Assembly: GCA_903904755.1 (NCBI GenBank)
Contig: CAIVDV010000015.1
Coordinates: 62,001 to 126,000 of the forward strand
Direction of reading: 5' to 3'
DNA from: an uncultured Acidobacteriaceae bacterium
GTDB taxonomy: Bacteria; Acidobacteriota; Terriglobia; Terriglobales; Acidobacteriaceae
DNA: 64,000 nucleotides
Below, in pieces: positions 27,063 to 48,314 of the stretch (its first letter is position 1; the number at the start of each line of letters is the position of its first letter). The translations under genes and the position numbers were made by a program. The notes under the pieces were generated by a model, which worked only from the letters and a program-made list of their open reading frames with translations, was not told the origin of the DNA and ran no database searches.

Positions 27063-27895
27063 ACTGAGCTCGGGGCAGCCCTGCTCTGAGGGACCGCTCT
27101 GCCCCATACTCAACCTGAAGAAGTTGCGGCGCAGTGGTGCGGATCAGCGACGAGCCTGCAGACGGCACGCCGAGCTGCCCCGGAAACGGCCCTCAGACAT
27201 GCTGCCGATTGCAGGCCGCAGCCACAAGTGCCGGTTCTCTGCTGCCATGCAGCAACTTCCCCTTCCTTTCGCCCAGGCCGCACCCGGCTGACTTCCCCGC
27301 CCCCTTCTTTGGCAAAACCCAACCACTCCCCTATATGAATTCACCTTATGTTTACTGTTCCCGAGATAGGCTCGATATATACCTAAGTCACGCGGAAGTA
27401 GTTTGCTTCGGCTTCGTTCACCAAAGGTTAACAGTAGCCGAAGCGTATTCACGAGAAATAAATATTCAGGTGGTTGGGAAAACATCAACGAATCCGTCAT
27501 TCTTTCGCGGCTCTTCGTTTTATGCGCTTCTGGAGCGGGTGTACAGCAAAACATGTCGCGGGTCATTGCGTATCAGAAAGGGTGGACAGGCCATCCTTTT
27601 GATAAGTGCGCCAATTTTTCGACTGCATCGCAAAGGGATGCAGTTATCTTTCACGTCCGGCAGCAAGTAAGTCAAGGTTCCGTTTCGATTGCCTTGGCAG
27701 TAAGTTCTCGGGCCCAATTGTTTCAGTTTGTTCATCTTTCAACACGTGGTGGCCAGTTTGTGGATTGTCAGCGACATAACTTGCCTAACCATGCAGCTAT
27801 CCTGCGGCCGGACGGTGCATGGCGCAGATGCCTCACGCAGAACGGCAAAGGGCAGCAACCCGGCACAACCGGGACCTTGGGGGGAATTGTCGGCG
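27063..27895. other. AT-richer gene-free region before the sigma-factor gene
   Basis: More than 800 bp with no convincing gene. From about 27320 to 27750 it is visibly AT-richer than the rest of the window. A perfect 9-bp inverted repeat (27405-27413 with 27436-27444, loop of 22) is present. Several short open frames occur but none has a ribosome-binding site or protein-like sequence. It probably carries the promoter and a long leader for the ECF sigma gene, or remnants of an inserted element. Confidence 0.45.
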
Positions 27896-28501
27896 ATGGC
27901 TCTTGGAATGATTGACTGGACGGAGTTCGATCGCGCCTCGGTGAACTCCCGTGCCCGCGTCTATCCAGTTGCCAGTTCCGCCCAGGAACAGGAGGGTACC
28001 CCGCCCTGGCAGGAGATTGCAGCTCGTACGTATAAGGACCTGCGAAACCGCCTCGTCCGCTTTCTCTGGAACCAGGGGCTCTCCACCGATGCCGCGGAAG
28101 ACGTCATTCAGGAGGCCTTTTTTCGCCTGGCCGGCCAGCTCCACGGTGGCGAGCAGATTGACAACCCATCGGCCTGGATCTTCCAGGTGGCGCACCACTT
28201 GTGTATGGACTACCACCGTGCGATTAGCCAGAGCCGCTCCAGAATGACCTCGGAGTTTGGCGCAATCGCCGAGCCCCTCGAATTCCGCACGAATCCGGAA
28301 TGGGTCTTTCTACAGAAGGAAAAGCAGGGACTGGTACGCACAGCCATGGTCCGACTGACACCTCAGCAGTGCCGCGGCTTTCAATTGCGCGCCTCGGGCC
28401 TGCGCTACAGGGAGATTGCCGCAGACCTGGGCGTGAGCGAGCAGCGCGCCATCCATCTGGTCAAGCGGGCGCTGGAGCGGCTGGGACGGATTCAACGATG
28501 A
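27896..28501 (+). CDS. ECF-type RNA polymerase sigma factor
   Basis: About 201 residues with sigma region 2 (YKDLRNRLVRFLWNQG, then DAAEDVIQEAFFRLAGQL and NPSAWIFQVAHHLCMDYHR) and region 4 (RLTPQQCRGFQLRASGLRYREIAADLGVSEQRAIHLVKRAL). Regions 1.1 and 3 are absent, as in the ECF group. I place the start at ATG 27896; ATG 27908 is an alternative, and the open frame upstream looks non-coding. No anti-sigma gene is adjacent. The next gene, a giant lipoprotein, begins 100 bp downstream on the same strand, so the factor is a natural candidate for controlling the surface-protein block that follows. That link is inferred from position. Confidence 0.88.
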   Translation: MALGMIDWTEFDRASVNSRARVYPVASSAQEQEGTPPWQEIAARTYKDLRNRLVRFLWNQGLSTDAAEDVIQEAFFRLAGQLHGGEQIDNPSAWIFQVAHHLCMDYHRAISQSRSRMTSEFGAIAEPLEFRTNPEWVFLQKEKQGLVRTAMVRLTPQQCRGFQLRASGLRYREIAADLGVSEQRAIHLVKRALERLGRIQR

Positions 28502-28601
28502 AGTAGCCGTCGGAAATCGATAAGGATGCGCTGTCCTGCGGTCAGGGCGGCCCAGATTGGGAAGCGGAAGCAAACAACCAAATGGATGGGCTCAGGGAGT
28601 G

Positions 28602-31600
28602 ATGGTTCATAAAGTTCAAAACAGCGATCCTGCACGGCCGCCGCAGCAGCATGGTACCGACTGCGCCTCCGAGCGCGCTTTTGCGTATGCCTCCTCTGCT
28701 GAGCGACTCATCCTGGCGATAGATCGCACCGCCGCGACGGCCGCCCATAGCCGGCGGCTCCGCCAAAAGGCTTTCACGACTCGTTTTGCGGGACGCGTCG
28801 CGGGTTTCGCCATCTTCGGCCTTGGGATGGCATCTTTCATCGGTTGTAACAGCAGTTCCAGCGTGCATGCGGGAGCCGTCGTCGTCTCCATTGCGGGCAT
28901 CACCACCAGCGGAAAGCCCGTCTCCATTGCCGCCGGCGGCAAGGCCACCGTCTCCATGAGTCCGGTCAACGATTCTCATGGGGCGGGCGTGGACTGGACA
29001 GCGATTTGCCTGGGAAACCCGGTCACCGGAAAAGCCACCGGCGGAGCCTGTGGAACCTTCTCACCGTCACACACGGCTGCGGGCGTTCCTGCCCTCTACA
29101 CGGCCCCTGCTCAGGTCCCCATCGGCAGTACGGTCACGCTCAGCGCCTCGGTCACCAGCGACCCATCCGCTACCAGCACGGCGGTCGCCACCATTTACGC
29201 GCCTGCCGTCTCCATCGCCTTCGCCTCCACCCCGCCCGCTTCCATCCAGCAGGGGCAGCAGGTCACGCTCAGCGCCCAGGTTACCAACGACAGCACCAGT
29301 GCCGGCCTCACCTGGTCAGTCAGTTGCGGCTCGGCCGCCGCAGGCGCCTGCGGAAGCTTCAGCAGCACAAGCGGCGCCACCACCATCTACACCGCGCCCG
29401 ACAACACCGTTGGCAGCCCGGTTACGATTACAGCGGCTTCCGTCGCCGTACCCTCTGTTACGGTCACCGCAACCATCACCATCAACCCAGCACCGGCAAT
29501 TTCGGTCGCCGTCGCTCCCGCCAGCTTTACCCTTGGCGCAGCGCACAACGGTGAGACCGCCAACCTGATTGCCACTGTTACGGGCGACAGCTCCGACGCG
29601 GGTGTGGACTGGTCCTTGCAGTGCACCAGTACCCTCGGCAACTGCGGCTCGCTCACCCCTGCCACCAGCGCCAGCGGCGCGGTCATTACCTACAAGGCGC
29701 CCCCAACTGTCCCCACCGGCGGCACAGTCATCATCACCGCCACGGCCCGCGCAAGCGAGGGCCAGCCCCATGTGCAGTCCGCCGTCACCACTGCCACCAT
29801 CACTTCCACCAAGACAATCTCTGTGAATGTCACCGCCCCGCCCAGCCTTACCGTGCAGGGCAGCACCACCCTGACCGCTACCGTGACCAACGATGACAGC
29901 GACGCCGGCGTCACCTGGACGGTTTCCTGTGCCACATCCGGCAAATGCGGCTCGGTTAGCGCCCCCACCGGCTCCAGTGGAGTCTTCACGGCGACCTACA
30001 CCGCGCCTGCCACCATCCCGTCCGGGGCGGTCGTAACCATCACCGCCAGCCCCATTGCAGCATCTCCGGGCGGTAATCCGGGCCTGGCGCAGACCACCAT
30101 CACGCCTGTGCTGCCCAGCATCACCTTCGGCACCCAGCCGCCGGCTACCATGACCGCCAACACCCGGTCGACTGTGAACGCCAAGGTTGCCAACGACGTT
30201 GCACCCGGCGGGGTCACCTGGTCAGTTGCGTGCGGAGCTGCCAACGCATGGGAGTGCGGATTTGTGGCGCCCTATCAGACTGCGAGCGGAGCCAACGCGG
30301 TCTACACCGCTCCCCCGATTGCCCCCTCTGGCCCGGTCACCCTCGTTGCCTCGGCCACTGCAACGTGCGTCCAGGATTCCTGCGCATCCTCGGTTTCGGT
30401 GCCGGTAACCATCGCGCCCGCCACGGCACTTTCCATCGGCTTTGTGCCTGCGCCGCCCACACAGATTGAGGCAGCCACGTCCGCGTATCTCAACGCGGCT
30501 GTGCAGAATGACTCCACCAGCGCGGGTGTCGACTGGAAGGTCTGCGCCAGTGGGTGCGGCTACTTTACCGTCACCCCGGCCATTCCTCCGAACCCCAAAA
30601 CCCCCACCTTGCCCACCATCCCCGCCGTCACTGCGACCACCGTGAAGGCCTGGCCCAATGGCGTGCCAATCCTCTACACCGCGCCGGCAACTCCGCCAAC
30701 TGACGGCCTTGTCGCCATCCAGGCAACCGCCCACGCAAACAGGTCGGCTATCGTTGTCTCGGCCGCAACCATCTCCACCGTGAACGGCGGGCCCACGCTC
30801 AATGGCACGGTTATGGCAGGAACCACCCCGGTGGCCGGCGCACAGGTGGCGCTGTACGCTGCGGGCAGCTCTGGCTACGGCTCAGCTTCCACGCTGGTTT
30901 CCCCCCCGGGGCAGAATCCGTTCGTCACCACCGATGCGCACGGGGTCTTCACCATCCCGGCCGGCTACGGGTGCCCCCAGGCCACCAGCCAAATGTACCT
31001 GGTTGCCATCGGCGGTACCACCGGCTCCAGCACTCCGAACTCCGCCCTGGCCATGATGACTGCGCTCGGCAGTTGCGGGGTGCTCAGCTCGTCGCCTGTC
31101 GTTGTCAATGAAGCCACCACAGTGGGCTCGGTCTGGGCACTGGCACCGTTTGCCGCCAACCCCCTCACAACCGGACTGAACAGCTACCTGAACATCGGCA
31201 CCAGCAGCGGCAACGCCACCGGCCTGGCCAACGCCTTTGCCGCAGTCAACAACCTGGTGGACATCTCCACCGGCCAGCCCCAGTTCAGCGTCCCTGCCGG
31301 CAACGCCACCGTGCCCTACGCGGAAATCAACATGCTGGCCGACATTCTGAATGCCTGCACGGCCACCGCCGGCGGACTGGCCGGGGACGGCACCGTGTGC
31401 GGAAACCTGCTCACGTCCGCCAATCCCTATCGCAACGTCAATGGACAGACGCTCTACACCGGCATCCCCACCGATACCCTGCAGGCATCGTTTGAGATTG
31501 CTCAAAACCCCGATTACAGCGCGGGCAGCGGCCCCAGCAACGTAACCGCAGCCATTGACGGAGCCGCGCTCTTCGCACTGGTTCAGCCCGGGGCGCCCTT

Positions 31601-32750
31601 CCAGCCACTTTTGAGCGCGCTGCCCTATGACTTCTCCGTTTCGCTGAACTTCACGGGCGGCGGGGGTCTGAGCCCAGCCAGCGGCAGCAACGCACTGGCG
31701 CTGGACTCCAGCGGAAACCTTTGGATTTCCAACTCGGCAACCAATAGCGTTACTGAATGGAACAACCTGGGAGCGCCCATCACTTCGCTCAGTGGCTACA
31801 CAACCTCCACCCTGGTTGCTCCCGGACCTATCGCCATCGATGCCTCAGGCTACGTTTGGATCTGCGGCCAAAACGGATTGACCCAGCTCAATTTGCTGGG
31901 AACGGAGATGGCGGACAGCCCCTTCTTTGGCGGGGGACTTACCACCGCCGGCTGCCAGAGCCTGGTGATGGACCCCTCCCAGAACATCTGGGCCGGCGGT
32001 GCGGAGAACCTGGCGAAGTTTGACCTTTACGGCAATCCGGTCTCGCCCGCGGCGGGCTATACCATCGCTGCCTCGCCGACCAACCACACCACCGTGCCGC
32101 TGGCCGGCGCGCTCGCGGTCGACCAGTCCGGCAATATCTGGGCCGGGGTCAACGCCCCCATCTACAACGGTTCGCTGGGCCTGGCGGAGTTGAACGGCGG
32201 CAGTGCTCTGCCCTATTACCTCAGCCCGCAGCCGGTTACCGGGTCTCCGTCAAACTTCGTCAACACCGGCGGCTATCCCACCGAGACGCAGATTGCCATT
32301 GACGCGGCCGGCAACGTCTGGGGCGCAGCCACCCAATCAACCTGCGCCCCCGGAACCCTCTTCAAGGTTCCTTCCTACAAAGGTACCGGCACCACGGACG
32401 CGGCCTCTTCCATCGCCTCCAACTCCGGCATCGATCCCTTCCGCTGCTCAGACGGAGTCGCAGTCGACGGTGCCGGGGTGATCTGGACCGCCAACGCCGG
32501 CGGTGCGGCAGATCCCCTGCTGACCCCGCCCAATGTCGGTGCCTACAACCCTTCCCTGCCGGCAAATACCTATGGGTACACCTCCGGCAGCCTGGCCAGC
32601 GGCCCCGTCAGTCTCTCCGTAGATGCCTCGGGGAACGTCTGGGTACTCCTGCATAACAACACCGTCACCGAATTCATCGGAGTCGGAACTTCGGCGGTCA
32701 CCCCGCTGTCATCGGCCGTGAAAAACAAAAAGCTCGGAGCAAAGCCTTGA
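28602..32750 (+). CDS. Giant lipoprotein: six Cys-paired Ig-like repeats plus C-terminal propeller-like region
   Basis: A 1382-residue secreted protein. The lipobox is FIGC (Cys82) after a helix; the 60 residues before it are unusually long and polar for a signal n-region. Residues about 90-740 contain six Ig-like repeats of 95-110 residues, each with the pattern V-ND..S.AGV.W.V.C....CG.F followed by YTAP..P.G..V.ITA; the two Cys of each repeat probably form a disulphide. Next is a carboxypeptidase-regulatory-like segment (LYAAGSSGYG). The C-terminal third has NHL-type units such as ALDSSGNLWISN, AIDASGYVWICG and SVDASGNVWVLL, suggesting a beta-propeller. ATG 28602 follows GGGAG. It is likely an outer-surface lipoprotein for adhesion or ligand binding. 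Confidence 0.85.
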   Translation: MVHKVQNSDPARPPQQHGTDCASERAFAYASSAERLILAIDRTAATAAHSRRLRQKAFTTRFAGRVAGFAIFGLGMASFIGCNSSSSVHAGAVVVSIAGITTSGKPVSIAAGGKATVSMSPVNDSHGAGVDWTAICLGNPVTGKATGGACGTFSPSHTAAGVPALYTAPAQVPIGSTVTLSASVTSDPSATSTAVATIYAPAVSIAFASTPPASIQQGQQVTLSAQVTNDSTSAGLTWSVSCGSAAAGACGSFSSTSGATTIYTAPDNTVGSPVTITAASVAVPSVTVTATITINPAPAISVAVAPASFTLGAAHNGETANLIATVTGDSSDAGVDWSLQCTSTLGNCGSLTPATSASGAVITYKAPPTVPTGGTVIITATARASEGQPHVQSAVTTATITSTKTISVNVTAPPSLTVQGSTTLTATVTNDDSDAGVTWTVSCATSGKCGSVSAPTGSSGVFTATYTAPATIPSGAVVTITASPIAASPGGNPGLAQTTITPVLPSITFGTQPPATMTANTRSTVNAKVANDVAPGGVTWSVACGAANAWECGFVAPYQTASGANAVYTAPPIAPSGPVTLVASATATCVQDSCASSVSVPVTIAPATALSIGFVPAPPTQIEAATSAYLNAAVQNDSTSAGVDWKVCASGCGYFTVTPAIPPNPKTPTLPTIPAVTATTVKAWPNGVPILYTAPATPPTDGLVAIQATAHANRSAIVVSAATISTVNGGPTLNGTVMAGTTPVAGAQVALYAAGSSGYGSASTLVSPPGQNPFVTTDAHGVFTIPAGYGCPQATSQMYLVAIGGTTGSSTPNSALAMMTALGSCGVLSSSPVVVNEATTVGSVWALAPFAANPLTTGLNSYLNIGTSSGNATGLANAFAAVNNLVDISTGQPQFSVPAGNATVPYAEINMLADILNACTATAGGLAGDGTVCGNLLTSANPYRNVNGQTLYTGIPTDTLQASFEIAQNPDYSAGSGPSNVTAAIDGAALFALVQPGAPFQPLLSALPYDFSVSLNFTGGGGLSPASGSNALALDSSGNLWISNSATNSVTEWNNLGAPITSLSGYTTSTLVAPGPIAIDASGYVWICGQNGLTQLNLLGTEMADSPFFGGGLTTAGCQSLVMDPSQNIWAGGAENLAKFDLYGNPVSPAAGYTIAASPTNHTTVPLAGALAVDQSGNIWAGVNAPIYNGSLGLAELNGGSALPYYLSPQPVTGSPSNFVNTGGYPTETQIAIDAAGNVWGAATQSTCAPGTLFKVPSYKGTGTTDAASSIASNSGIDPFRCSDGVAVDGAGVIWTANAGGAADPLLTPPNVGAYNPSLPANTYGYTSGSLASGPVSLSVDASGNVWVLLHNNTVTEFIGVGTSAVTPLSSAVKNKKLGAKP

Positions 32751-33574
32751 ACCTGAAATTGAGGACGACACCACGCATCAAAGCGAAGATTTCTGCGGCG
32801 GCGGCCGAGCGTTCGGCGCTCCGGCTTCTGGGCGCCATGTCGGTTGCACTGGCAGTCACGCTGTCTGGCTGCGGCAGCAATGTGGTTCCCATCAAAGTCG
32901 GCCCCATCACATTTACTGACTCCAACGGGAAGCATGTCTCCAAGCCGGAATCGTTGACCGCCGGCGCCTCCAACTCGATGGAGGTAACCGTTGCCAAGGA
33001 TGTCCAGTTGCTGGGCGTCAACTGGAGCGTTGCCTGCGGCAGCAAGCCGCCGACCGGCACACCGCTGCCTCCCGGAACCCCGGTGGATGCCTCCTGCGGA
33101 ACCTTTACGCCGGTTCACACCGCCAGCGGCCCGGTGCCGAGCTATGCCACCAGCGGGGCCGGGGTTGTCACGTTGTACACAGCGCCGGCAGCTCCTCCCA
33201 AGGAGGGCGTGGTCACGCTCTATGCGGCGTCCACTGCAGATCCCACCCGGTACTCGTACTTGACCCTGCCTATCGTCGGCGGAGCCATCGCAATCGAATT
33301 CGGTTCGGTCCCTCCCACCTCCCTTCAGGTGTCCACTACGGCAGTCTTCAAGGCCGTACTCACCAACGACTACGCCGCAGCGGGAGCCACCTGGAGCGTC
33401 ACCTGCGGGGTAAGCGATTGCGGCACCTTCAGCCCGCAGGTTACTTCCAGCGGAGTTGCCACCAGCTACCTGGCTCCGTCTGCGGTACCGCCGTCCGGTT
33501 CGGTAGTCATCACCGCTACCTCGGTCACCGACTCCACCAAGTCCATCAGCGCCACGGTTGCAATTGCACCCTGA
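32747..33574 (+). CDS. Lipoprotein with two Cys-paired Ig-like repeats
   Basis: A 275-residue lipoprotein with lipobox LSGC (Cys42) following a long Arg/Lys-rich n-region. It carries two copies of the same Ig-like repeat found in the upstream giant lipoprotein: VNWSVACG...SCGTFTP...LYTAPAAPP and ATWSVTCGVSDCGTFSP...YLAPSAVPP. TTG 32747 is the start: GGAG lies eight bases before it, and TTG overlaps the upstream TGA (TTGA), so the two lipoproteins are translationally coupled and probably act together at the cell surface. No enzymatic motif is seen. Confidence 0.85.
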   Translation: MNLKLRTTPRIKAKISAAAAERSALRLLGAMSVALAVTLSGCGSNVVPIKVGPITFTDSNGKHVSKPESLTAGASNSMEVTVAKDVQLLGVNWSVACGSKPPTGTPLPPGTPVDASCGTFTPVHTASGPVPSYATSGAGVVTLYTAPAAPPKEGVVTLYAASTADPTRYSYLTLPIVGGAIAIEFGSVPPTSLQVSTTAVFKAVLTNDYAAAGATWSVTCGVSDCGTFSPQVTSSGVATSYLAPSAVPPSGSVVITATSVTDSTKSISATVAIAP

Positions 33575-33683: not shown

Positions 33684-35543
33684 ATGAATCACACTGGAAG
33701 AATCTTCGGCGCACTGCTGCTTGGCATCGCCGTGGCCGGCGCTCAAGCCCAAACAGCCTCCAGCACAGAGAAAAAGCCCCGCGCACAGGCTGCCGCCGAC
33801 CAAAAGCTGCTTCTCGAACAACTGAGCCAGGAAGTTCAGCAGTTGCAGAAGACCAGCCGGAACTACGACCAGCTTCGCAAAGAGGTCGATGACCTGAAGA
33901 AGCAGTTGCAGGCCGCCAACGCGGCCGCTGCCGCTGCCGCTCAAACCGCGCAGCAAGCCAAGCAGGACCTGGCGGGCGTTGTCTCCCGCAATGACGAGGC
34001 GGTAACCAAGCTGCAGGACGCTGTCAGCACGATGAAGAGTGCCACCGCCTCAATCGCCGATACCATCCAGACCGGGCAAGCTGAGGTGAAGGCGCTGGAA
34101 TCTCCAGACGCGCTCCGCCTCAAGGGAATCTCCCTGACTCCAGGCGGCTTCATGGCCGGGGAAACCGTGTGGCGTCAGCGCGGCATCGGCGGCGACATCA
34201 ACACGCAGTTCAACGGCATCCCGTTTGCCGGGCAAACCGCCGGCCGCCTCTCGGAGTTCAACGCCAGCGCCCGCCAGTCGCGTGTCTCGTTCCTGGCTAC
34301 CGGGAAAATGCCCAGTTCCACTCTGCGCGGCTACCTGGAAGGCGACTTCCTCTCTGCCGGCACGACTTCCAACAATAACCAGAGCAACAGCTACACCTTC
34401 CGCCTTCGTCAGGCATGGGCCCAGGCCCAACTGCCCAAGGGCTGGGAGATTACAGCCGGCCAAATGTGGTCGCTCGCCACGGAGCTCAAATCCGGCCTGG
34501 CCAATCTCCAGGAAGCTCCCCCGCTTACCATCGACGCGCAATACAACGTCGGCTTCAGTTGGGCGCGCCAGTACGGCTTCCGCATCACCAAGAAGCTTGA
34601 CAACCATCTCTGGGTTGCGGCCAGCGTGGAAGAGCCGCAAACCCTCAATATTGGTGGACACAACCTGCCCACCATCGCCTATCAGCAGGCCGGCAATGGC
34701 AGCGGGCTTTATAACTCCACCGCCAACTACAGCTTCAACCTGGCACCCGATTTGCTCGCCAAGCTGGTCTACGAGCCCTCCTTCGGCCACTTTGAACTCT
34801 TTGGAGTTGGCCGCTTCTTCCGCGACCGCGTCTTCCCGAACGGTGCTGCGCCTCCGGGAGCCACCCAGCCCACCACTCCATCAGCCCTCGGTGCCTTTAC
34901 TTCCAAGGCTGCCGGTGGCGGTGCAGGCGCCAATGGCCGCGTCTCCCTCTTTGCCAAGACCCTCGATGTCGGCGCGCATATTCTCGTCGGCGACGGCATC
35001 GGCCGCTACAGCAACTCCACCCTGCCTGACGCTACCGCCCACCCGGACGGCTCTCTGGAACTGCTCACCGGCGGCTCCGCCCTGGCTTCGGCAGAGTGGC
35101 ATCCTGTCAAACGCTTCGACCTCTACGGCTACTACGGCGCTGAGTACGCCAAGCGTGCCTATTACAACACCGGTTACTTTGTGGTAACCCCCGGCCCGAC
35201 GCAGGGCCAGCCGATTCTGAGCGGCTACGGCGCCCCCAACAACCTCGTCTATGGCTGCTACACCGAGGTTCTCCCCGTGTCCTCGCCCAACGGTGGCGGA
35301 AGTGTCCCCGGAGCCGCCGCCAACTGCCAGGCCGACACCCGGAACATCCAGGAAGGAACGCTTGGCTACTGGTACCGCTTCTATCAGGGCCCCCGCGGCA
35401 CCTTCCAGCAGGGCATCCAGTACTCCTATGTGGTTCGTCACACATGGCTCGGAATCGGAGACCCGCTCACCGGTCTCAGCGGTTCCCCCAAAGCGATCGA
35501 CAACATGATCTTCACCTCGTTCCGGTACTACTTGCCCAAGTAA
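33684..35543 (+). CDS. Outer-membrane porin-like protein with N-terminal coiled coil
   Basis: The product has 619 residues. A signal peptide (GALLLGIAVAGAQA) is followed by about 100 residues of heptad-rich, Ala/Gln-rich coiled coil (LLLEQLSQEVQQLQK, then LRKEVDDLKKQLQAAN), then a 450-residue beta-barrel-like region of alternating aromatic strands ending in the aromatic-rich FTSFRYYLPK. A coiled coil before the barrel is known in trimeric porins, where it extends into the periplasm and may contact peptidoglycan or an inner-membrane partner. Substrate is unknown. The ribosome-binding site AAGGAG lies before ATG 33684. It follows the small lipoprotein by 109 bp and precedes the TonB-dependent receptor. 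Confidence 0.85.
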   Translation: MNHTGRIFGALLLGIAVAGAQAQTASSTEKKPRAQAAADQKLLLEQLSQEVQQLQKTSRNYDQLRKEVDDLKKQLQAANAAAAAAAQTAQQAKQDLAGVVSRNDEAVTKLQDAVSTMKSATASIADTIQTGQAEVKALESPDALRLKGISLTPGGFMAGETVWRQRGIGGDINTQFNGIPFAGQTAGRLSEFNASARQSRVSFLATGKMPSSTLRGYLEGDFLSAGTTSNNNQSNSYTFRLRQAWAQAQLPKGWEITAGQMWSLATELKSGLANLQEAPPLTIDAQYNVGFSWARQYGFRITKKLDNHLWVAASVEEPQTLNIGGHNLPTIAYQQAGNGSGLYNSTANYSFNLAPDLLAKLVYEPSFGHFELFGVGRFFRDRVFPNGAAPPGATQPTTPSALGAFTSKAAGGGAGANGRVSLFAKTLDVGAHILVGDGIGRYSNSTLPDATAHPDGSLELLTGGSALASAEWHPVKRFDLYGYYGAEYAKRAYYNTGYFVVTPGPTQGQPILSGYGAPNNLVYGCYTEVLPVSSPNGGGSVPGAAANCQADTRNIQEGTLGYWYRFYQGPRGTFQQGIQYSYVVRHTWLGIGDPLTGLSGSPKAIDNMIFTSFRYYLPK

Positions 35544-35583: not shown

Positions 35584-35742
35584 CAGTCATCCGACCATCT
35601 ACGGCAAACGCCTCCCAAGGGAAGCCGCAAGCCGTCACCTCCGGAGGCAAATCTGGATCTGGCACCACCGGATCTCCAGGCTTGCCCGGGCCGGAAAACT
35701 TACCCCCTCGCGGGATGTGTCTTTTTGGGGAGTGCCAGAAAA

Positions 35743-38700
35743 ATGGACCGAATGCTTCGTAGAGCCTGGCCAATCGTATTGGCGCTGTGGCTGGCTGGGG
35801 CCGCCTGTGGAATCGCACAGACAGGTGCCTCAATCAAAGGGCACGTGACCGACCAGCAGGCCGCCGTTATCCCTGGCGCGTCCATCCACGTCATCAGCGA
35901 AGATGGCGCAATCAAGAAGGACGCCATCTCTGACCAGGAAGGCAACTACATCGTTCCTGACCTGCCTCCGGCTAGCTATCGCGTTTCTTCCGAGATGGAG
36001 GGCTTTGAAGCCTTCCGCAGCCAGACGGTGACGCTTGCCACAGGGCAAACTCTGGTCTTCGACGTTCAGTTGGCCATCGCTGCGCAAACTTCCGAGGTGA
36101 AGGTCTTCGCCAACAACGCTGAGGCCAGCGTTGAGACGGATAACGCCAATATCTCCACGACCATCTCAGAAAAAGAAGTCTCCGAGATTGGCTTGAACGG
36201 GCGAAATCTCTCCCAGTTAATCGCCATCGCTCCGGGTGTCAGCAACCAGAGCGGCCAGGACGAGGGCAAAGTGGGCGTGGCCGGGAGCGCCAAGTTCAGC
36301 GTCAACGGCGGCCGCGTGGAGTACAACACGTTTGAAGTGGATGGCAGCGACGTGCTGAATACCAGCATCAATGCCAGCCGCGGCCAGGGCCAGCCCCTCA
36401 TGGTCTACGCCAGCGTCGATGCCGTCCAGGATATGAAGATCCTGACCTCGAACTACGACGCCATGTACGGCAAAAGTGCTTCCGGCACGGTCATCACCAC
36501 CACCAAATCCGGCACTCCCGCTCTCCACGGCAACGCATATGAGTTCCTGCGCAATGAGGTCTTCAACGCTCGCAACTTCTTTGACCAGCCGGTGCAGCAG
36601 CGAAACGGAAGCACCAAAAAGAAGACCCCGCTTTATCGGCGCCAGGACTTCGGCGCAACCCTTGGCGGGCCCATTTTTGTGCCCCACATCTACAACGAGA
36701 AACGGGACAAGACCTTCTTTTTCATCTCGGAAGAAGGCCGCCTGGAGAAGACCCCGGTTGACTTCAACCAGGCCGTGCCCACCGCAGCCGAGCGCAAGGG
36801 CGACTTCTCCGATGTGTGCCCGGCGTTTGTTCCGGGCGGCAGCCTCTATTTCAACCCGGCCTCCTACCCGGACTGCCCCTATGACCGCCTGAACAACAAC
36901 AGCGGCTCAGGCTTTGTTCCCGGACGCCAGATTATCGTCGGCAATATCAGCCAGTCCATTCTCGATACCGGCATCCTCCCGGCCCCCAACTCCAACTTCG
37001 GCTGCAACACCACCAACCAGACCACCCTGCCGCGTTGCTACACGGCCTCGGTCTCCCCTTCCACCTACTGGCACGAAGATCTCTTCCGGGTTGACCACAC
37101 CATCAGCGCCAGTCACCAGATCTTTTTCCGGTACATTCACGACGCCTGGAACACCACAACGCTGACCCCGCAGTGGGGCGTGGTCCAGAACAGTTTCCCC
37201 ACGGTCGAAAACAAGTTGAAAGGCCCTGGTCTGGATGTGGTGGCAAGCCTCGTCGAGACCCTGCCGCACAACTTCGTCAATCGCATTGACCTCAGCTTTG
37301 CCATGCAGCACATCACCCTTACCCCCCAGCCAGGGCAGGGCGTGAGCAGCCTGGCCCGTCCCAGCGCACTCGACGCGCCCTGCAATTCGGTGGGGACCAT
37401 CACCGATTGCCCGATGGGCAAGATCTTTGACAATGCCGCCTCCCAGTCCGGAGCAGTCAAGATGCCCGGCCTGGTCTTCCAGGGAACCAATGGCGCCTAC
37501 GGCGGCCACGGCTTTGCCGCAGATACCGGTTACGCCCCCTGGGACCAGCACAACCCCACCTACCTGATTCGCGACGACCTCAGCAAAGCTTTTGGCAAGC
37601 ACCTCATCCAGGCCGGTGGACTCGCAACGCTGGTCCAGCAGGACGAGCTCAGCGCGGTCAACGGCGCAAACTCCGGCGACACGCAGGGGCTGATCAGCTT
37701 CAGCAATCAGCAGTCCATGTTTACCTCGGGCAACGCCTTTGCAGATTTCCTGATGGGCCCCGGCGTAAACCCCAACTCCTACGACCAGCAGACCGCCATC
37801 AAGAGCTTTACCCAGGACAGCGGCCAGACCAACTACTACAACAGTTACAAGATGGCCGAGTTCTACCTGCAGGACACCTGGCAGGCAAACAGCCACCTCT
37901 CCATCAATCTTGGCCTCCGCGGCAGCTTCTTCGGGATGTGGCGCAACCTGAAAAACAGCGCCTTCAACTGGCGGCCCGAGGCCTTTGACCAATCCCTCGG
38001 CGCCTCAGTCGCAGTCGATCCAACCTTCGGATACCTGGTTCATCAGACGGGCTCCGGCACCGGCGCAGCGGGTTCTCCCATCACCTTGCCAAACCGTACC
38101 GGGGCCTACTCGCTGAAGGATCTTGACCCGGTGATGACCAACGGTCTGATCCAGTGCGGCGTGAACGGCGTAAGCCCAAGCTGCATGAAAAACCATCTCT
38201 TCAACCCGGCACCCCGCATCGGATTCTCGTGGGATCCCAAGGGCAATGCCAAAACCGCGATTCGTGGCGGCTACGGGTTCTTCTGGGAGCACGGTACCGG
38301 CTATGAAGCCAACGTCGGCTCGCTCATCGGCAGCGCACCGACCGTGCTGAGCGAGACTCAGTCCAATGTCCCCTCAATTTCGGGCGGCAATGCCGGCGCC
38401 TATAACCTGATTGGCTATTCCTGCCAGGGTGGCGAGACGCAATGCCCAGGCTACTCCGGCGCCGGTGTTGTCACCTTCCCGCTGAACGTCACTTCCATTC
38501 CCACCAAGGCCGTCTATGGATACACGCAGCAGTGGAGCCTCAGTATCCAGCAGGAACTGCACAAGGGCATGGTGGCCTCGCTTGCTTATGTCGGCACCAA
38601 GGGAACGCACCTGACCGCGGTGCGCGACCTGAACCAGTTGCAGCCGCTCGCCTCGTCGCTCAATCCATTCGCGCCGGGCCAGCCTATCAACGCCAGCGTC

Positions 38701-39849
38701 TGCAACAGTGGCGCAAACTACAACTACTTCTCGGTGACCGGCTCCAACGCGGTCGGGCAGAATGGAATCCCAAGCTCACCCGGCATTGGCCCCACTTCAC
38801 CCGGCTACATCAACATGATTGTGGCCTGCACGGGCAACTCCGGCTTCGTCAGTTCCAGCCAGCACGCGCTCGGCATCAGCCCTGACGTAGTTCGCCCCTA
38901 CCGCGGTTTTGCCAATATCATTTCGCTCGACAACATCGCCACTTCCGCCTATCACGGTCTGCAGAGCACCCTGCGGGAAACGACCGGCGGACTCACCCTT
39001 GGCCTCTCCTACAGCTATAGCCACTCCATCGACGATTCCTCAGACCGGTCGTCGGCAAACTTCGCCAACTCGCTCGACCTCAAGTCCAATCGCGCCAGCT
39101 CTGACTTCGATCAGCGCCACATGCTCAATGTGACCTATCTGTACGACCTGCCGCTGGTTGAGGTATTGGGCGGGTTGACGCACCTGCTGGGGCCGCTTGC
39201 CGACGACGAACCGAAGGATGCCCCAGCCCCGGCTCAGGGCCGCCGCATCAGTGCGGTATGGCGCAACCTGCTGGATAAGTGGCAGTTGAGCGGCATCACC
39301 ATGTACCAGTCCGGCTCGCCCTTCAGCGTCATCAATGGCGGTGGCTCTGACGGCACCGGAGAAGCCGACAACGCCGGCGTTGGCGACGGCCTTGGCATCG
39401 GTTCCTTTGCCGATGTCATCGGCAGTGTCCACAGCGTGAAGCCGGTTGTCGCCAGCTCCAGCGCCAATGTTGGCCCGCTGCTGCTCAATCCGGGCGCATT
39501 CGCCGCACCCCGCGGACTTACCTTCGGAAACTCCGGAAGAAACTCGCTCAACAACCCTTCGCGCATCAACTTCAACGCTTCCCTGCTGAAGAACTTCAAG
39601 TTCGCCAAGGACCGGGTGAATGTCGAATTCCGCACCGAAGGCTACAACATCTTCAACCACACTCAGTTCCGGATCTACGACCCCAGCCATCCGGGCAACT
39701 CCGGCAACAACGTCATCAATTGCTATGGCGATGAGTCCACGCAATACTCCGCAGGCGCACCAGGCTGCCTGGTCGGCAACTCCTTTCTGCATCCAGTCGA
39801 TGCCCACGATCCTCGCATCCTTCAGTTCGGTCTGAAGGCTTCCTTCTAG
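35743..39849 (+). CDS. TonB-dependent receptor with carboxypeptidase-regulatory N-terminal domain (Oar-like)
   Basis: The product has 1368 residues. After a signal peptide (PIVLALWLAGAACGIAQ), residues 30-115 form a carboxypeptidase-regulatory/Ig-like domain (ASIKGHVTDQQAAVIPGASI, then GNYIVPDLPPASYRVS). A plug domain (LNGRNLSQLIAIAPGVSNQ, FSVNGGRVEYNTFEVDG, VITTTKSGTPALHGNAYEFL) and a long 22-strand-type barrel follow, ending in Phe (LQFGLKASF). This architecture is very common in Acidobacteriota. Such receptors import large or scarce ligands using TonB energy; the ligand is unknown, and no tonB/exbBD genes lie here. ATG 35743 is preceded by GGGGAG at ten bases; ATG 35752 is an alternative. 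Confidence 0.95.
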   Translation: MDRMLRRAWPIVLALWLAGAACGIAQTGASIKGHVTDQQAAVIPGASIHVISEDGAIKKDAISDQEGNYIVPDLPPASYRVSSEMEGFEAFRSQTVTLATGQTLVFDVQLAIAAQTSEVKVFANNAEASVETDNANISTTISEKEVSEIGLNGRNLSQLIAIAPGVSNQSGQDEGKVGVAGSAKFSVNGGRVEYNTFEVDGSDVLNTSINASRGQGQPLMVYASVDAVQDMKILTSNYDAMYGKSASGTVITTTKSGTPALHGNAYEFLRNEVFNARNFFDQPVQQRNGSTKKKTPLYRRQDFGATLGGPIFVPHIYNEKRDKTFFFISEEGRLEKTPVDFNQAVPTAAERKGDFSDVCPAFVPGGSLYFNPASYPDCPYDRLNNNSGSGFVPGRQIIVGNISQSILDTGILPAPNSNFGCNTTNQTTLPRCYTASVSPSTYWHEDLFRVDHTISASHQIFFRYIHDAWNTTTLTPQWGVVQNSFPTVENKLKGPGLDVVASLVETLPHNFVNRIDLSFAMQHITLTPQPGQGVSSLARPSALDAPCNSVGTITDCPMGKIFDNAASQSGAVKMPGLVFQGTNGAYGGHGFAADTGYAPWDQHNPTYLIRDDLSKAFGKHLIQAGGLATLVQQDELSAVNGANSGDTQGLISFSNQQSMFTSGNAFADFLMGPGVNPNSYDQQTAIKSFTQDSGQTNYYNSYKMAEFYLQDTWQANSHLSINLGLRGSFFGMWRNLKNSAFNWRPEAFDQSLGASVAVDPTFGYLVHQTGSGTGAAGSPITLPNRTGAYSLKDLDPVMTNGLIQCGVNGVSPSCMKNHLFNPAPRIGFSWDPKGNAKTAIRGGYGFFWEHGTGYEANVGSLIGSAPTVLSETQSNVPSISGGNAGAYNLIGYSCQGGETQCPGYSGAGVVTFPLNVTSIPTKAVYGYTQQWSLSIQQELHKGMVASLAYVGTKGTHLTAVRDLNQLQPLASSLNPFAPGQPINASVCNSGANYNYFSVTGSNAVGQNGIPSSPGIGPTSPGYINMIVACTGNSGFVSSSQHALGISPDVVRPYRGFANIISLDNIATSAYHGLQSTLRETTGGLTLGLSYSYSHSIDDSSDRSSANFANSLDLKSNRASSDFDQRHMLNVTYLYDLPLVEVLGGLTHLLGPLADDEPKDAPAPAQGRRISAVWRNLLDKWQLSGITMYQSGSPFSVINGGGSDGTGEADNAGVGDGLGIGSFADVIGSVHSVKPVVASSSANVGPLLLNPGAFAAPRGLTFGNSGRNSLNNPSRINFNASLLKNFKFAKDRVNVEFRTEGYNIFNHTQFRIYDPSHPGNSGNNVINCYGDESTQYSAGAPGCLVGNSFLHPVDAHDPRILQFGLKASF

Positions 39850-39858
39850 GAGAAGTAC

Positions 39859-41322
39859 ATGGCGTACTCGCAGACTCACTCACCCGCTACACTACTGCGC
39901 CGCAGGAGCGCATCCGCGCTGGTCCTTCTGGCTGCAGGCTGGATTTGCGCATGCGGTGGCGGCACAAAAACTACCACCACCGGGCCCACCGCAAACACGC
40001 CTGCGACCTATTTCGCTGCCGCGGTGGCGGGTGCCTATGCGGGCAGCGCCATCAGCGACTCGGAGTATCTCTCCACTTATACGGTCGATGACCAGAAGCA
40101 TACCTTCGCCGAGTCTATCTATACCTTCGGCAGCGGCGACCAGCAGGGCCCCCAACTGGACTACTCCGGCACAACCGCAGCCAGTGCCCGCGGCCTCTCC
40201 GAATTCCAGATAGATTACTCGAACAGCCTCTACGGCTCGGCCGTCAACAGCGGCAAGGGCATTACCTACAATCCCCCGCTCAGCGGTAACTGGTTCTTCG
40301 AACTTCCGGACCAGGCCGGCGGGTTGGTCACTCTGAGGGGCTTGCCGTTTGTCCCGTTGGTTGCCGCTGAAAAGTGCCCATCCGGTACGGCGAGCACGAC
40401 TTATAACTTCGTCAGCATCCCAACCTATATCGGACCGAACCTGGCGGGGTCGTCCGGTGGCATTTCAAACTGGATTCCCGCTGACGACACAGCCTACGGA
40501 AGCGTGCAGGTCAGCGGCAAGGGCAGTAATGTCACTTTTGACAGCATCCGGCAGTTTTCCGCATCCGGGGCAGCAATCACAAGCTACAAGGACCTCAAGA
40601 GCAGCCCCGCCGCCGTCACCTCTGCGACAGGCGTATGCGCGTCCACTTTCTACGGAAACACGATCAGCGTTCCGGCCGAGGTCGTCATCACCAATCCGGG
40701 CCAGGGGGAAACCATCTCCAGCCCCGCCGTGGTCGCAATTGGACCCACCGGACTACTGATCGAGAACAACGGAGAAACCTCGAACCTGGTTTCCAACGCC
40801 CAAATCACGGGCTATCAGCCGTTTATGGGCTCGGGTACGGGAGCTATGGGTCTTCCGCAGCCGGGCAGCGCCGTAAGCGTTTCCGCTCTGAGTGCCGCGC
40901 AATATGTGGGCGTCACCTATGGCGGCGGCACCGGTGCCAAGGACTGGTCTTCGCTGATTACTTCCTTCGGATTCCCCAGTGCGCCTGCCTCCTGCCCCAC
41001 CGGCAGCTTTACCGCGCCGCTCTTTGGGGGCGACTTTCCGGGCAATGATCCGACCCAGTCCGCAGCAGGCTCTGCCGCCGGCTACGGCAACTGCAATCTC
41101 GTCGTGGATCTGGGTACGCAGGATCCCTCGACCAATGGCCTTTTCCCGCACGCCACGGTTGTTGTCGGCGCTGCCTTCGGCGGCAATCAGAAAGCCCACA
41201 CCTTCCCGGCAACCGCAATCGCAGGCCAACTCGGCGGCAAGTACGCGGTTTTCCTGATTGGCGTGGATACCAGTGGAACGCCCCAGCAGGCTTGGGGAAT
41301 TTATCTGTTTCAGTCCAACTGA
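39859..41322 (+). CDS. Secreted lipoprotein of unknown function
   Basis: A 487-residue lipoprotein with an Arg-rich n-region, hydrophobic stretch and lipobox ending in CACGGG (Cys30 or Cys32). The mature protein is rich in Ser, Thr, Gly and Ala, with many predicted strands and no domain I recognise. It begins ten bases after the TonB-dependent receptor stop and has a strong ribosome-binding site (AGGAGAAG), so the two are almost certainly co-transcribed. It may therefore be a surface partner of the receptor, in the way SusD-type lipoproteins partner SusC, although no SusD similarity is visible. Confidence 0.85.
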   Translation: MAYSQTHSPATLLRRRSASALVLLAAGWICACGGGTKTTTTGPTANTPATYFAAAVAGAYAGSAISDSEYLSTYTVDDQKHTFAESIYTFGSGDQQGPQLDYSGTTAASARGLSEFQIDYSNSLYGSAVNSGKGITYNPPLSGNWFFELPDQAGGLVTLRGLPFVPLVAAEKCPSGTASTTYNFVSIPTYIGPNLAGSSGGISNWIPADDTAYGSVQVSGKGSNVTFDSIRQFSASGAAITSYKDLKSSPAAVTSATGVCASTFYGNTISVPAEVVITNPGQGETISSPAVVAIGPTGLLIENNGETSNLVSNAQITGYQPFMGSGTGAMGLPQPGSAVSVSALSAAQYVGVTYGGGTGAKDWSSLITSFGFPSAPASCPTGSFTAPLFGGDFPGNDPTQSAAGSAAGYGNCNLVVDLGTQDPSTNGLFPHATVVVGAAFGGNQKAHTFPATAIAGQLGGKYAVFLIGVDTSGTPQQAWGIYLFQSN

Positions 41323-41457
41323 CCTGTGACCGCGCGCGCCGTCACAGCCCGCGGAAGAGCAAGCGGGAAAGGCAGAGGACCAGTCAACAGCGCCGGTGCA
41401 ACTTCCAAGCGACCGACGCAAAAGATTCGCAGCAGTGCTATCGAAAGGGTCAGGACC

Positions 41458-44400
41458 GTGAGATTGATTCCAGTGGAAGTTCAAACGAGTGTGGGTGCTG
41501 AGAAGCCGGCTTTTCGTGCCATTCAGCGAGTTGCTTTGTTGCTGATGACAACCACTGGGTTGCTGCTCGCTGCCGGATGCGGTGGCAGCGCCACCAAACC
41601 CGTCACCGCTACGCCCACTCTTACCCCTGGTGCCGGTGCCTATAAGTCCTCGCAAACGGTCACCATTGGCGATACGACCGCCGGTGCCGTGCTGTACTGC
41701 ACCACCGACGGCAGCACGCCCACTTCCTCGTCTACGCAGTGCACTGAGCCGGTTACGGTAGCCAAGAGCGAGACCCTCAGCGTTCTTGCGGTTGCGCCCG
41801 GATACAGCCCCAGCGCAGTCGTAACCGCGGCGTACACCATCAATCTGCCCGCCGCCGCCACCCCGGTTATCAGCCCCAACGGCGGAACCGTGAACGCGGG
41901 GCAGTTGGTCGCCATCACCGATGCCTCGGCAAACACCACCATCTACTACACCACGGATGGCTCCACGCCAAGTTCCACGAACGGTGCCCAGTACACAGCA
42001 CCAATTGTCGTTTCCGCTCCGGAAACAATCAGCGCCATTGCTGTCGGCAGTCAGTTCAGCCCCAGCAAAGTGGCAACTGCCACATTCAGCATCCTTTACC
42101 GGCCCGCGATTACCAGTCTTAGCCCCACCTCCGGCCCGGTTGGCTCCGCAGTCACCCTCACCGGCACCAACTTCGGCGCAACCCAGGGCTCCTCCACCGT
42201 AACCTTTAACGGCGCCAAAGCCACCGTCACCGCCTGGAGCGGCAGTTCCATCACCGCCGTTGTTCCGGCCGGCGCCACCACCGGCAACGTCGTCGTCACA
42301 GAAGGCGGCTTGGCCAGCAATGGTGTGGCCTTCACCGTTCTGCCCACCCCCACGGTTTCCGCCGTTTCGCCCGCTTCCGGCGCGGCAGGGGCTTCCGTCA
42401 CGCTCACCGGAACCCACTTCGGCACCACCCAGGGATCCAGCACAATCAGCTTCAATGGCACTGTTGCCACCGCAATCACAAGCTGGAGCAATACCTCCAT
42501 CACTGCACTGGTTCCGGCGGGGGCAACCACCGGGAGCGTCGTCGTCACGGTTGACGGAGTCGCCAGCGCCGGCACCGCCTTCACGGTTCTGCCCACCCCC
42601 GCAATCTCCGGCCTCAGCCTCACGTCTGCCGCCGTTGGTGCATCGGTCACCGTCAATGGATCCAATTTCGGCGCTACTCCCGGCTCAGTTACGATCAACG
42701 GCACGGTAGCCACCATCTCCTCCTGGACCGCATCTTCGATCACCTTCACCGTACCCGCAGGTGCCACCTCGGGCACCCTGGCAGTCAAGGCCAGCGGCAT
42801 CACGGTCAGCGGCGGCACCTTCACGGTCCTGCCAACCCCCACCGTCAGCAGTTTCAACCCCGCTTCGGGCGCAGTGGGTTCCACGGTCACCCTCACCGGC
42901 AGCAATCTCGGTGCAACGGCGGGCTCTGTGACCTTTAACGGCACCCCCGCCAGCATTTCCGCCTGGACCGCCACTTCCATCACCGTCACCGTTCCCAGCG
43001 GTGCCACCACTGGCACCCTGGCAGTGAAGGCGAGCGGCATCACCGTCAATGCGGGCACCTTCACCATTCTGGCCACGCCCACAGTCACAAGCCTCAATCC
43101 CGCCTCGGGCCCGGTCGGCTCAACCGTCACAATAACCGGCACCAACTTTGGCGCAACTCAGGGCACGGTCAGCTTCAACGGCACCGCGGCGACCATCTCC
43201 TCCTGGACCGCCACTTCCATCGCCGTCGTGGTTCCGGCCGGTGCCACCACCGGCAACGTCTCGGTCACCGTCAGCGGCGTCACTGTGAATGCGGGCGCCT
43301 TTACGGTTCTGCCCCGGCCCACCATCACCAGTCTCAACCCGGCAACCGGTGCCGCAGGTGCCACAGTCACCGTCACCGGCACCAACTTCGGCGCAACCCA
43401 GGGCACCAGTTCGCTCACCTTCAACGGCACGGCTGCCACCTCCATCTCAAGCTGGAGCGCGACTTCCATCACCGCAGTCGTCCCCAGCGGGGCCACCAGC
43501 GGCAGCGTAGTGGTCACGGTCAACGGTGTCGCCAGCAGCGGCACCGCCTTCACGGTTCTGCCCACACCGGCCGTCACCAGCATCAATCCCACCTCGGGCG
43601 CGATTGGCGCCACGGTCACCATCACCGGCAGCAACTTCGGCGCAACCCAGGGCACGGTCAGTTTCAACGGCACCGCGGCCACAGTATCCTCCTGGACCGC
43701 CACCTCCATCGCCGTGACCGTTCCGGCCGCAGCCACCACCGGCAACGTCTCGGTCACCGTCAGCGGCGTCACCGTCAACGCGGGCACCTTCACGGTTCTG
43801 CCAAGGCCCACCATCACCAGCCTCAACCCTGCTTCCGCAGCGGTCGGTGCCACGGTCACCATCACCGGCACCAACTTCGGCGCAACCCGGGGCACCAGCA
43901 CGCTCACCTTTAACGGCACTCCGGCAACCTCTATTTCAAGCTGGAGCGCCACTTCCATCACCGCGGTCGTCCCCAACGGTGCCACCAGCGGTAGCGTAGT
44001 GGTCACGGTCAGCGGTGTCGCCAGCGCCGGCACATACTTCACCGTTCCCGGAACCCCCGCCATTTCGAGCATCAATCCCACCGCCGGCCCAGTCGGAACC
44101 ACGGTCACCATCACCGGCAGCAACTTCGGCGCCACCCAGGGATCCGTCAGCTTCAACGGCACCGCGGCCAACGTCACTTCCTGGACTGCCACCTCCATCA
44201 CCGTGACTGTGCCCGCAGGCGCCACCACCGGCAGCGTGGCCATCACGGTCAGCGGTGTCACCGTCACCGGCGGCACCTTTACGGTCCTGGCCGTGCCCAC
44301 CATCAGCAGTCTCAATCCCACCTCGGGCGCAGTCGGCTCCACGGTCACCATCACCGGCACCAACTTCGGCGCCACCCAGGGCTCCAGTTCCCTCACCTTC

Positions 44401-47985: not shown

Positions 47986-48314
47986 GCCCCGCAACCCGCC
48001 CGTTTCCCACCACCGTACCCCGGCCGATCGCCACCTCTGGCGGTCATCCGGGGTACACAAATCAGGTCTGAAACACTCCCTTAACACCGTCATTCCCCGA
48101 TTGTGAATTGCTCGTGATTTCCCGCTCAGGAACAGGCCTTCCTCGTTGGGAAAACTGGCACCCTCCCGTCTCATACCCAGAGCGCTCAGAAGGCTCGGTC
48201 CGCTGCGGGTCGAGTGAATTTGAAGTCACGGCCACATGCTCTAGCGGCCATTTCCGGGACTGCAATGCAACAGCCCCCCCCGCGATAGCTTGCAGAACCA
48301 TGGAGCACAAAATA
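47986..48314. other. Gene-free spacer with a two-part hairpin
   Basis: About 330 bp without a credible gene. A long hairpin at 48015-48056 has a perfect outer stem (48015-48023 with 48048-48056) and a perfect-but-one inner stem (48026-48033 with 48038-48045). There is no T-run, but its place 30 bp after the giant lipoprotein stop suggests transcription termination or mRNA end protection. Confidence 0.55.

Follow-up and report, generated by a model that had tools for sequence, protein, structure and literature searches.

Two lipoproteins of Cys-paired Ig-like repeats in a conserved Acidobacteriaceae gene cassette with porin-like and Oar-type barrels

Acidobacteria are abundant in soil, and little is known of their outer-membrane biology. 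For a locus from this group, several described bacterial systems offer points of comparison. Oar-type transporters, exemplified by Oar of Myxococcus, combine a CarboxypepD_reg domain with an outer-membrane barrel domain. In one survey, which found 34,893 TonB-dependent transporters, this architecture was assigned to 28% of those tallied (PMC6434023). The SusCD utilisomes of Bacteroidetes comprise a TonB-dependent barrel encoded together with lipoproteins, and FecIRA-type cell-surface signalling involves an ECF sigma factor and a membrane anti-sigma factor near a TonB-dependent barrel. The Big-type domains of intimin, FdeC, LigA and InvE are tandem Ig-like sandwiches, and propellers of the NHL and virginiamycin B lyase kind complete the list. 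The cassette presented here resembles each of these in part, and no description of it was found among the titles and abstract openings that literature searches listed.

The stretch analysed, hereafter the window, is 64,000 nucleotides of DNA from an uncultured Acidobacteriaceae bacterium, and all features named below lie on its plus strand. An ECF sigma factor gene (27728..28501; Sigma70_r2 3.6e-9, Sigma70_r4_2 7.6e-6, TIGR02937 7.5e-19) comes first; its true start is probably downstream of 27728, region 2 beginning near residue 102 of the open frame. Next are the genes for a giant lipoprotein (28602..32750; 1382 aa from its ATG) and a small one (32747..33574; 275 aa from a TTG start). They are followed by a presumed outer-membrane barrel with an N-terminal coiled coil (33684..35543), 60-66% identical to 12 relatives and called porin-like for a presumed resemblance to DcaP-like porins; at E up to 0.01 it had no PDB profile match. 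An Oar-type TonB-dependent barrel (35725..39849; OMP_b-brl_4 1.1e-148, CarboxypepD_reg 1.7e-17, Plug below cut-off) and a third lipoprotein of no known family (39859..41322; Pfam matches below cut-off) complete the series. A preliminary description of the lipoprotein pair was right about its repeats and gene overlap but overlooked both this surrounding cassette and a propeller module that the giant has in common with a second giant protein.

The same gene order recurs in relatives, which were collected in two ways. Twelve loci from nine genomes were picked for having matches to the giant and the small protein, so the presence of these two is there by selection while the other genes are unselected. 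A first contig scan with the small protein as query returned no relative; a second, with the porin alignment as query, returned 49 loci, of which 15 have a porin more than 60% identical and 13 of these carry the cassette. With six duplicates removed, the twelve and the thirteen make 19 distinct loci, each counted once. All 19 have the order ECF sigma factor, putative membrane anti-sigma factor, giant, small protein and porin-like barrel, and in 18 the Oar-type TonB-dependent barrel and then the third lipoprotein follow, the remaining contig ending in the porin. The 34 porin loci of lower identity (L110-L143; best segment 36-51%) showed no giant or small protein and were excluded from the cassette counts, and a 3.4-kb contig (L106) holds only the porin and the Oar barrel. 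The linkage is not strict, since the porin can occur apart from the cassette: on a 5.5-kb contig outside the 19 (L107:917-2941), a porin about 70% identical over residues 100-546, with a different N-terminus, has unrelated genes and no cassette neighbour on either side. Across loci the pairwise identities of six cassette proteins correlate (rho 0.66-0.89, with 0 of 499 permutations reaching this in each case), in a set that includes four cassettes of one genome and to which shared organism history contributes.

Set against the known systems, the window's Oar-type barrel shares with Myxococcus Oar a CarboxypepD_reg domain (63.9 bits, cut-off 32.3) and an outer-membrane barrel domain; it differs in a Plug match of 21.0 bits that stays under the cut-off of 23.9, and in having Ig lipoproteins and a porin-like barrel as fixed neighbours. 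The likeness to SusCD lies in a TonB-dependent barrel encoded with lipoproteins, but Pfam and NCBIfam at E up to 1 listed no SusD-like family for the giant, small or third lipoprotein, and Pfam listed no glycoside hydrolase family for the cassette proteins. The likeness to FecIRA lies in the ECF sigma factor and the putative membrane anti-sigma factor near the barrel; however, no STN domain is among the six families that Pfam listed for the barrel at E up to 1, and an anti-sigma gene adjacent to sigma is absent from the window and occurs in relatives only if the putative one is genuine.

This putative anti-sigma factor is a protein of about 600 aa encoded between sigma and the giant in all 13 porin-found loci, in the four cassettes of G004 and in those of G100 and G121, which makes 19 of 19. 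Each of the 13 porin-found members has an HxxxCxxC motif and one strong hydrophobic segment, features that suggest a membrane anti-sigma factor; the one member scanned had no Pfam match at E up to 0.001. In the window no such gene fits at 28502-28601, because sigma and the giant are only 100 bases apart. Searched at E up to 0.01, a profile of the 13 proteins drew a blank in the window's genome; in three genomes that had not contributed to it, the profile matched six cassettes, each with an E of at most 5.8e-188. With the window's genome rated 97.5% complete, a copy could lie on sequence that is missing, though this is unlikely. One 979-aa open frame (L100:17634-20573) matches the putative anti-sigma factor only from about residue 127, and similar partial matches occur in G004 and G121. 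Upstream of sigma, as many as 8 of 20 regions had dyads in common, compared with 3-4 for shuffled sequence; these dyads could fall within coding sequence and played no further part.

Turning to the lipoprotein pair, both proteins have a lipobox, in keeping with the description of them as lipoproteins. The giant's open frame extends over 28557..32750, from a TTG at 28557 that marks the upstream limit, through the ATG at 28602, to the closing TGA. Its presumed lipid-attachment Cys (28845-28847; Cys82 in ATG numbering) is invariant in 14 of 14 aligned giants, as is that of the small protein (32870-32872; Cys42) in 14 of 14 aligned small proteins. The TTG of the small gene (32747-32749) does overlap the giant's TGA (32748-32750), as had been noted, and by eye a GGAG stands 7 bases upstream of that TTG. 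The further proposal that the overlap fixes the ratio of the two products is unsupported: such an arrangement permits translational coupling and sets no ratio. Coupling is plausible in the window. Among the 19 relatives, a start/stop overlap (ATG or GTG over TGA) is kept in 13, the genes abut (TAAATG) in two, and neither arrangement is present in four; in 14, an in-frame ATG lies 53-63 bases beyond the giant's stop. A Shine-Dalgarno-like stretch precedes 10 of the 14 downstream ATGs as against 5 of the 15 overlapping or abutting starts, and coupling in the relatives is uncertain.

Beyond its six repeats, the giant ends in a C-terminal module (30792..32747) that comprises a small beta domain, a poorly modelled middle and an NHL/Vgb-like beta-propeller (about 31674-32747). 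The module's profile matches PDB propellers at 5e-23, Reg_prop reaches 28.2 bits on the giant (cut-off 20.4), and Foldseek returns propellers of the NHL, Pizza and virginiamycin B lyase kind. The likeness to the NHL and virginiamycin B lyase propellers lies in repeat profile and predicted fold, with weak identity and a low-confidence model (mean pLDDT 52.9). The module is homologous (1e-38) to the C-terminus of a second giant encoded downstream (41326..47985), in which CHB_HEX_C_1, Fn3_assoc and 13 TIG stretches (TIG 5.8e-145) precede it. The second giant has TIG stretches in place of Cys repeats, so that one head is carried by two different stalks. A protein best matching the second giant flanks 16 of the 19 distinct cassette loci. 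Farther along, a 644-aa secreted-looking protein (48108-50042) without matches in Pfam (E up to 0.001), NCBIfam (0.01) or PDB (10) has a relative beside two other cassettes (L079, L104). The small lipoprotein shows no trace of the module in 12 of 19 relatives; in the other seven a C-terminal extension matches the first half of it, and this retained half makes the small gene resemble a duplicate of the giant that was cut short.

The repeats themselves form a single family, as had been claimed, with six copies in the giant and two in the small protein. Those of the giant lie at 28878..29198 (profile 6.0e-31), 29205..29489 (9.4e-31), 29496..29798 (2.1e-30), 29811..30104 (5.3e-28), 30111..30419 (1.1e-31) and 30426..30779 (7.2e-27), the last with a long insert past its second Cys. 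The small protein has one at 32882..33277 (7.6e-30), with 19 residues between the Cys, and one at 33284..33571 (1.0e-31), where model strands flank Cys220-x4-Cys225. To avoid circularity, each protein's repeats were searched with the other's profile. The profile of the six giant repeats found both small repeats at 67.8 and 54.1 bits, against 6.4 for the best of 1000 shuffles, and that of the two small repeats recovered the giant's six with scores from 17.2 to 31.3 bits, shuffles being absent from the reported matches. A motif W..C...CG...AP occurs six times in the giant and twice in the small protein, against means of 0.002 and 0.000 per shuffle. The alignment of all eight has 12 invariant columns (D, G, W, Cys, Cys, G, G, Y, A, P, V, A). 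The consensus given in the preliminary description stands as to both Cys and the Trp, while its 'ND' and the 'GV' before the Trp each hold in only six of eight repeats. Searched against the window's own genome, the repeat profile returned these eight (E < 1e-26) and four weak others (4.9e-7 to 0.0066).

Neither Pfam (E up to 1) nor NCBIfam listed a family above its cut-off over the repeats of the two window proteins, so the earlier proposal survives the comparison with existing Pfam families having the same Cys pair. A2M reached 19.7 bits (cut-off 21). With E up to 1, neither of the two proteins was assigned a Pfam Big family, and tallies over 14 giants (E up to 0.01) and 14 small proteins (E up to 0.1) contain no Big or Ig-like family. 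Matches to a single member among these 14-member tallies, namely DUF6093 (0.01), PliI (0.051), Dioxygenase_C (0.0037) and A2M (0.00076), were taken as chance. The Cys-stapled repeat is a clean domain family for which no Pfam or NCBIfam model was found.

The Ig-like character first ascribed to the repeats agrees with the predicted fold. The model of the small protein (mean pLDDT 79.3) has two beta domains, each predicted as an Ig-like beta-sandwich. With E up to 0.001, Foldseek matched it to 786 chains of the PDB; those ranked highest are mostly eukaryotic and antibody Ig domains, with low TM-scores (0.21-0.39 by query length). In a second structural comparison the top rows were bacterial Ig domains: intimin D00-D0 (Z 9.0, rmsd 8.0, 179 aligned), FdeC (Z 8.7, rmsd 10.4, 200 aligned), LigA (Z 8.4, rmsd 7.4, 155 aligned) and InvE (Z 8.0, rmsd 5.3, 185 aligned). 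These Z values are modest and, given rmsd values between 5 and 10, could stem from nothing more than the shared Ig fold. Like the Big-type domains of these four proteins, the Cys repeats are predicted to form tandem Ig-like sandwiches; they differ in having a conserved Cys pair beside strand C and no listed Big model. On its predicted fold, the repeat is filed as a Big-like variant and not as a member of a Pfam Big family. In L016, a distant protein of the same genome, a further domain does reach Big_2 (25.7 bits, cut-off 22.8).

What might such an assembly do? The gene content of the cassette points to an outer-membrane complex around the TonB-dependent barrel, and the first choice among the readings, with a probability of roughly 40%, is a surface receptor complex that imports a bulky ligand via this barrel. 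The giant and the small protein would be outer-membrane lipoproteins built of rigid Ig-like domains, each shut by a local disulfide from the end of strand C to the next strand. The six-domain Ig stalk of the giant would keep its beta-propeller away from the membrane, and the small protein would be a shortened relative. These two, the porin-like barrel, the Oar-type barrel and the third lipoprotein most likely make up one surface complex that binds the ligand and hands it to the TonB-dependent barrel. The ECF sigma factor and the putative membrane anti-sigma factor would turn the cassette on, the window's copy being without the anti-sigma gene. No cassette gene indicates a substrate.

Traffic through the TonB-dependent barrel could instead run outward, in an Oar-like export. 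The N-terminal CarboxypepD_reg domain of the window's barrel is Oar-like, and genes for large stalk proteins adjoin it, but an Oar architecture does not predict export, because 28% of the transporters tallied in the survey have it (PMC6434023), and export is a rather unlikely reading. Unlikelier still is an adhesin or surface coat whose Ig stalks contact soil particles or other cells while the neighbouring barrels are merely co-regulated. Adhesin and S-layer Ig domains are indeed the top structural rows, and the distribution is patchy with four copies in one genome; against this, matches at Z 8-9 and rmsd 5-10 could mean no more than a shared Ig fold, and the order is kept with the porin-like barrel in 19 of 19 distinct loci and with the TonB-dependent barrel in 18 of 19. 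Returning to uptake by a receptor complex, a bolder and doubtful version sees an undescribed, self-contained Acidobacteriaceae outer-membrane machine that is duplicated as a unit. In it, the disulfide-stapled Ig stalk with its propeller head and the shortened twin would be capture arm and lid for the Oar-type barrel, switched by a dedicated sigma/anti-sigma pair and unlocked in the window's lineage by loss of the anti-sigma factor. As a fixed set of lipoproteins and barrels with its own sigma factor, the cassette offers a concrete target for asking what Acidobacteria take up or display, and also whether Oar-type barrels import or export.

The stapling supposed here rests on the Cys pair of each repeat, and the pairing proposed earlier is borne out in a far larger set. 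Among 303 distinct repeats from the fetched loci (E up to 0.01; the number is unchanged when contained copies are dropped), 241 have two Cys in the hairpin, 57 lack Cys there, four have a single one and one has three; for the 301 with full flanks the counts are 240 with two, 57 with none and four with one. Independence of the two Cys would predict about 95 single-Cys repeats where four were observed, although no P value is claimed, as the repeats are related by descent. By open frame (86 in all), 68 contain only two-Cys repeats, 12 only repeats without Cys, four both kinds, and two include singles. Three of the four repeats with a single Cys belong to one protein, and in all four a second Cys lies further along the domain. 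All twelve Cys of the giant's six repeats are invariant in 14 aligned giants, and so are Cys97, 117, 220 and 225 in 14 aligned small proteins, while the residues between paired Cys vary from 3 to 19. Five of 157 repeats from cassette loci (open frames below 1500 aa) are without Cys at one or both exact columns; they are read as alignment slips, since in every one of the five a pair of Cys is visible nearby.

Repeat 2 of the small protein is modelled with one Cys where strand C ends and the other immediately ahead of the following strand, so a staple would close this hairpin. Classical Ig domains have a disulfide between strands B and F, and the putative staple of the Cys repeats differs from that. 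Because the Cys pairing is nearly all-or-none and the pair flanks the strand-C hairpin in the model, we infer one local disulfide staple per two-Cys repeat. That the Cys instead bind metal or stay reduced, their pairing being a matter of descent, has in its favour that the 303 repeats share descent and are not independent, yet it is improbable given that both Cys are retained at spacings from 3 to 19, that every single-Cys repeat has a second Cys further on, and that lipoboxes on the giant and the small protein mean that both should leave the cytoplasm. A relative in the same genome (L016:1252-3246) has three repeats in which only one Cys lies near the place of the staple and its partner comes later, in the TVTA strand; these may form a disulfide of another kind. 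In the small protein, the loop between the first two paired Cys (33035-33097) is 19 residues long in 14 of 14 sequences, with several Pro and Gly invariant, a conservation suggestive of a functional surface.

The repeat is widespread and the cassette patchy: within the order, 98 of 150 genomes gave matches to a looser repeat profile, whereas a sample of 399 genomes from the class yielded full-length small orthologs (profile, E < 1e-100) in 7. These seven are all in the window's family, and six of them had fed the small-protein profile. Of 14 other genomes of the genus, one has four cassettes and none of the other 13 gives a match better than 5.6e-16. A sample of 396 genomes of the phylum (E up to 1e-50) returned the window's own genome only, which says little on rarity because other known carriers were not returned, and plasmid records gave no match to the small protein. 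Among the carriers found via the porin are Paracidobacterium acidisoli (two loci), Silvibacterium bohemicum, Granulicella mallensis and other Granulicella. The repeat also occurs apart from the cassette, on eight open frames (L087-L094) that are 714-793 aa long; of these loci, L090 encodes two distant Oar relatives as well (22% and 31%).
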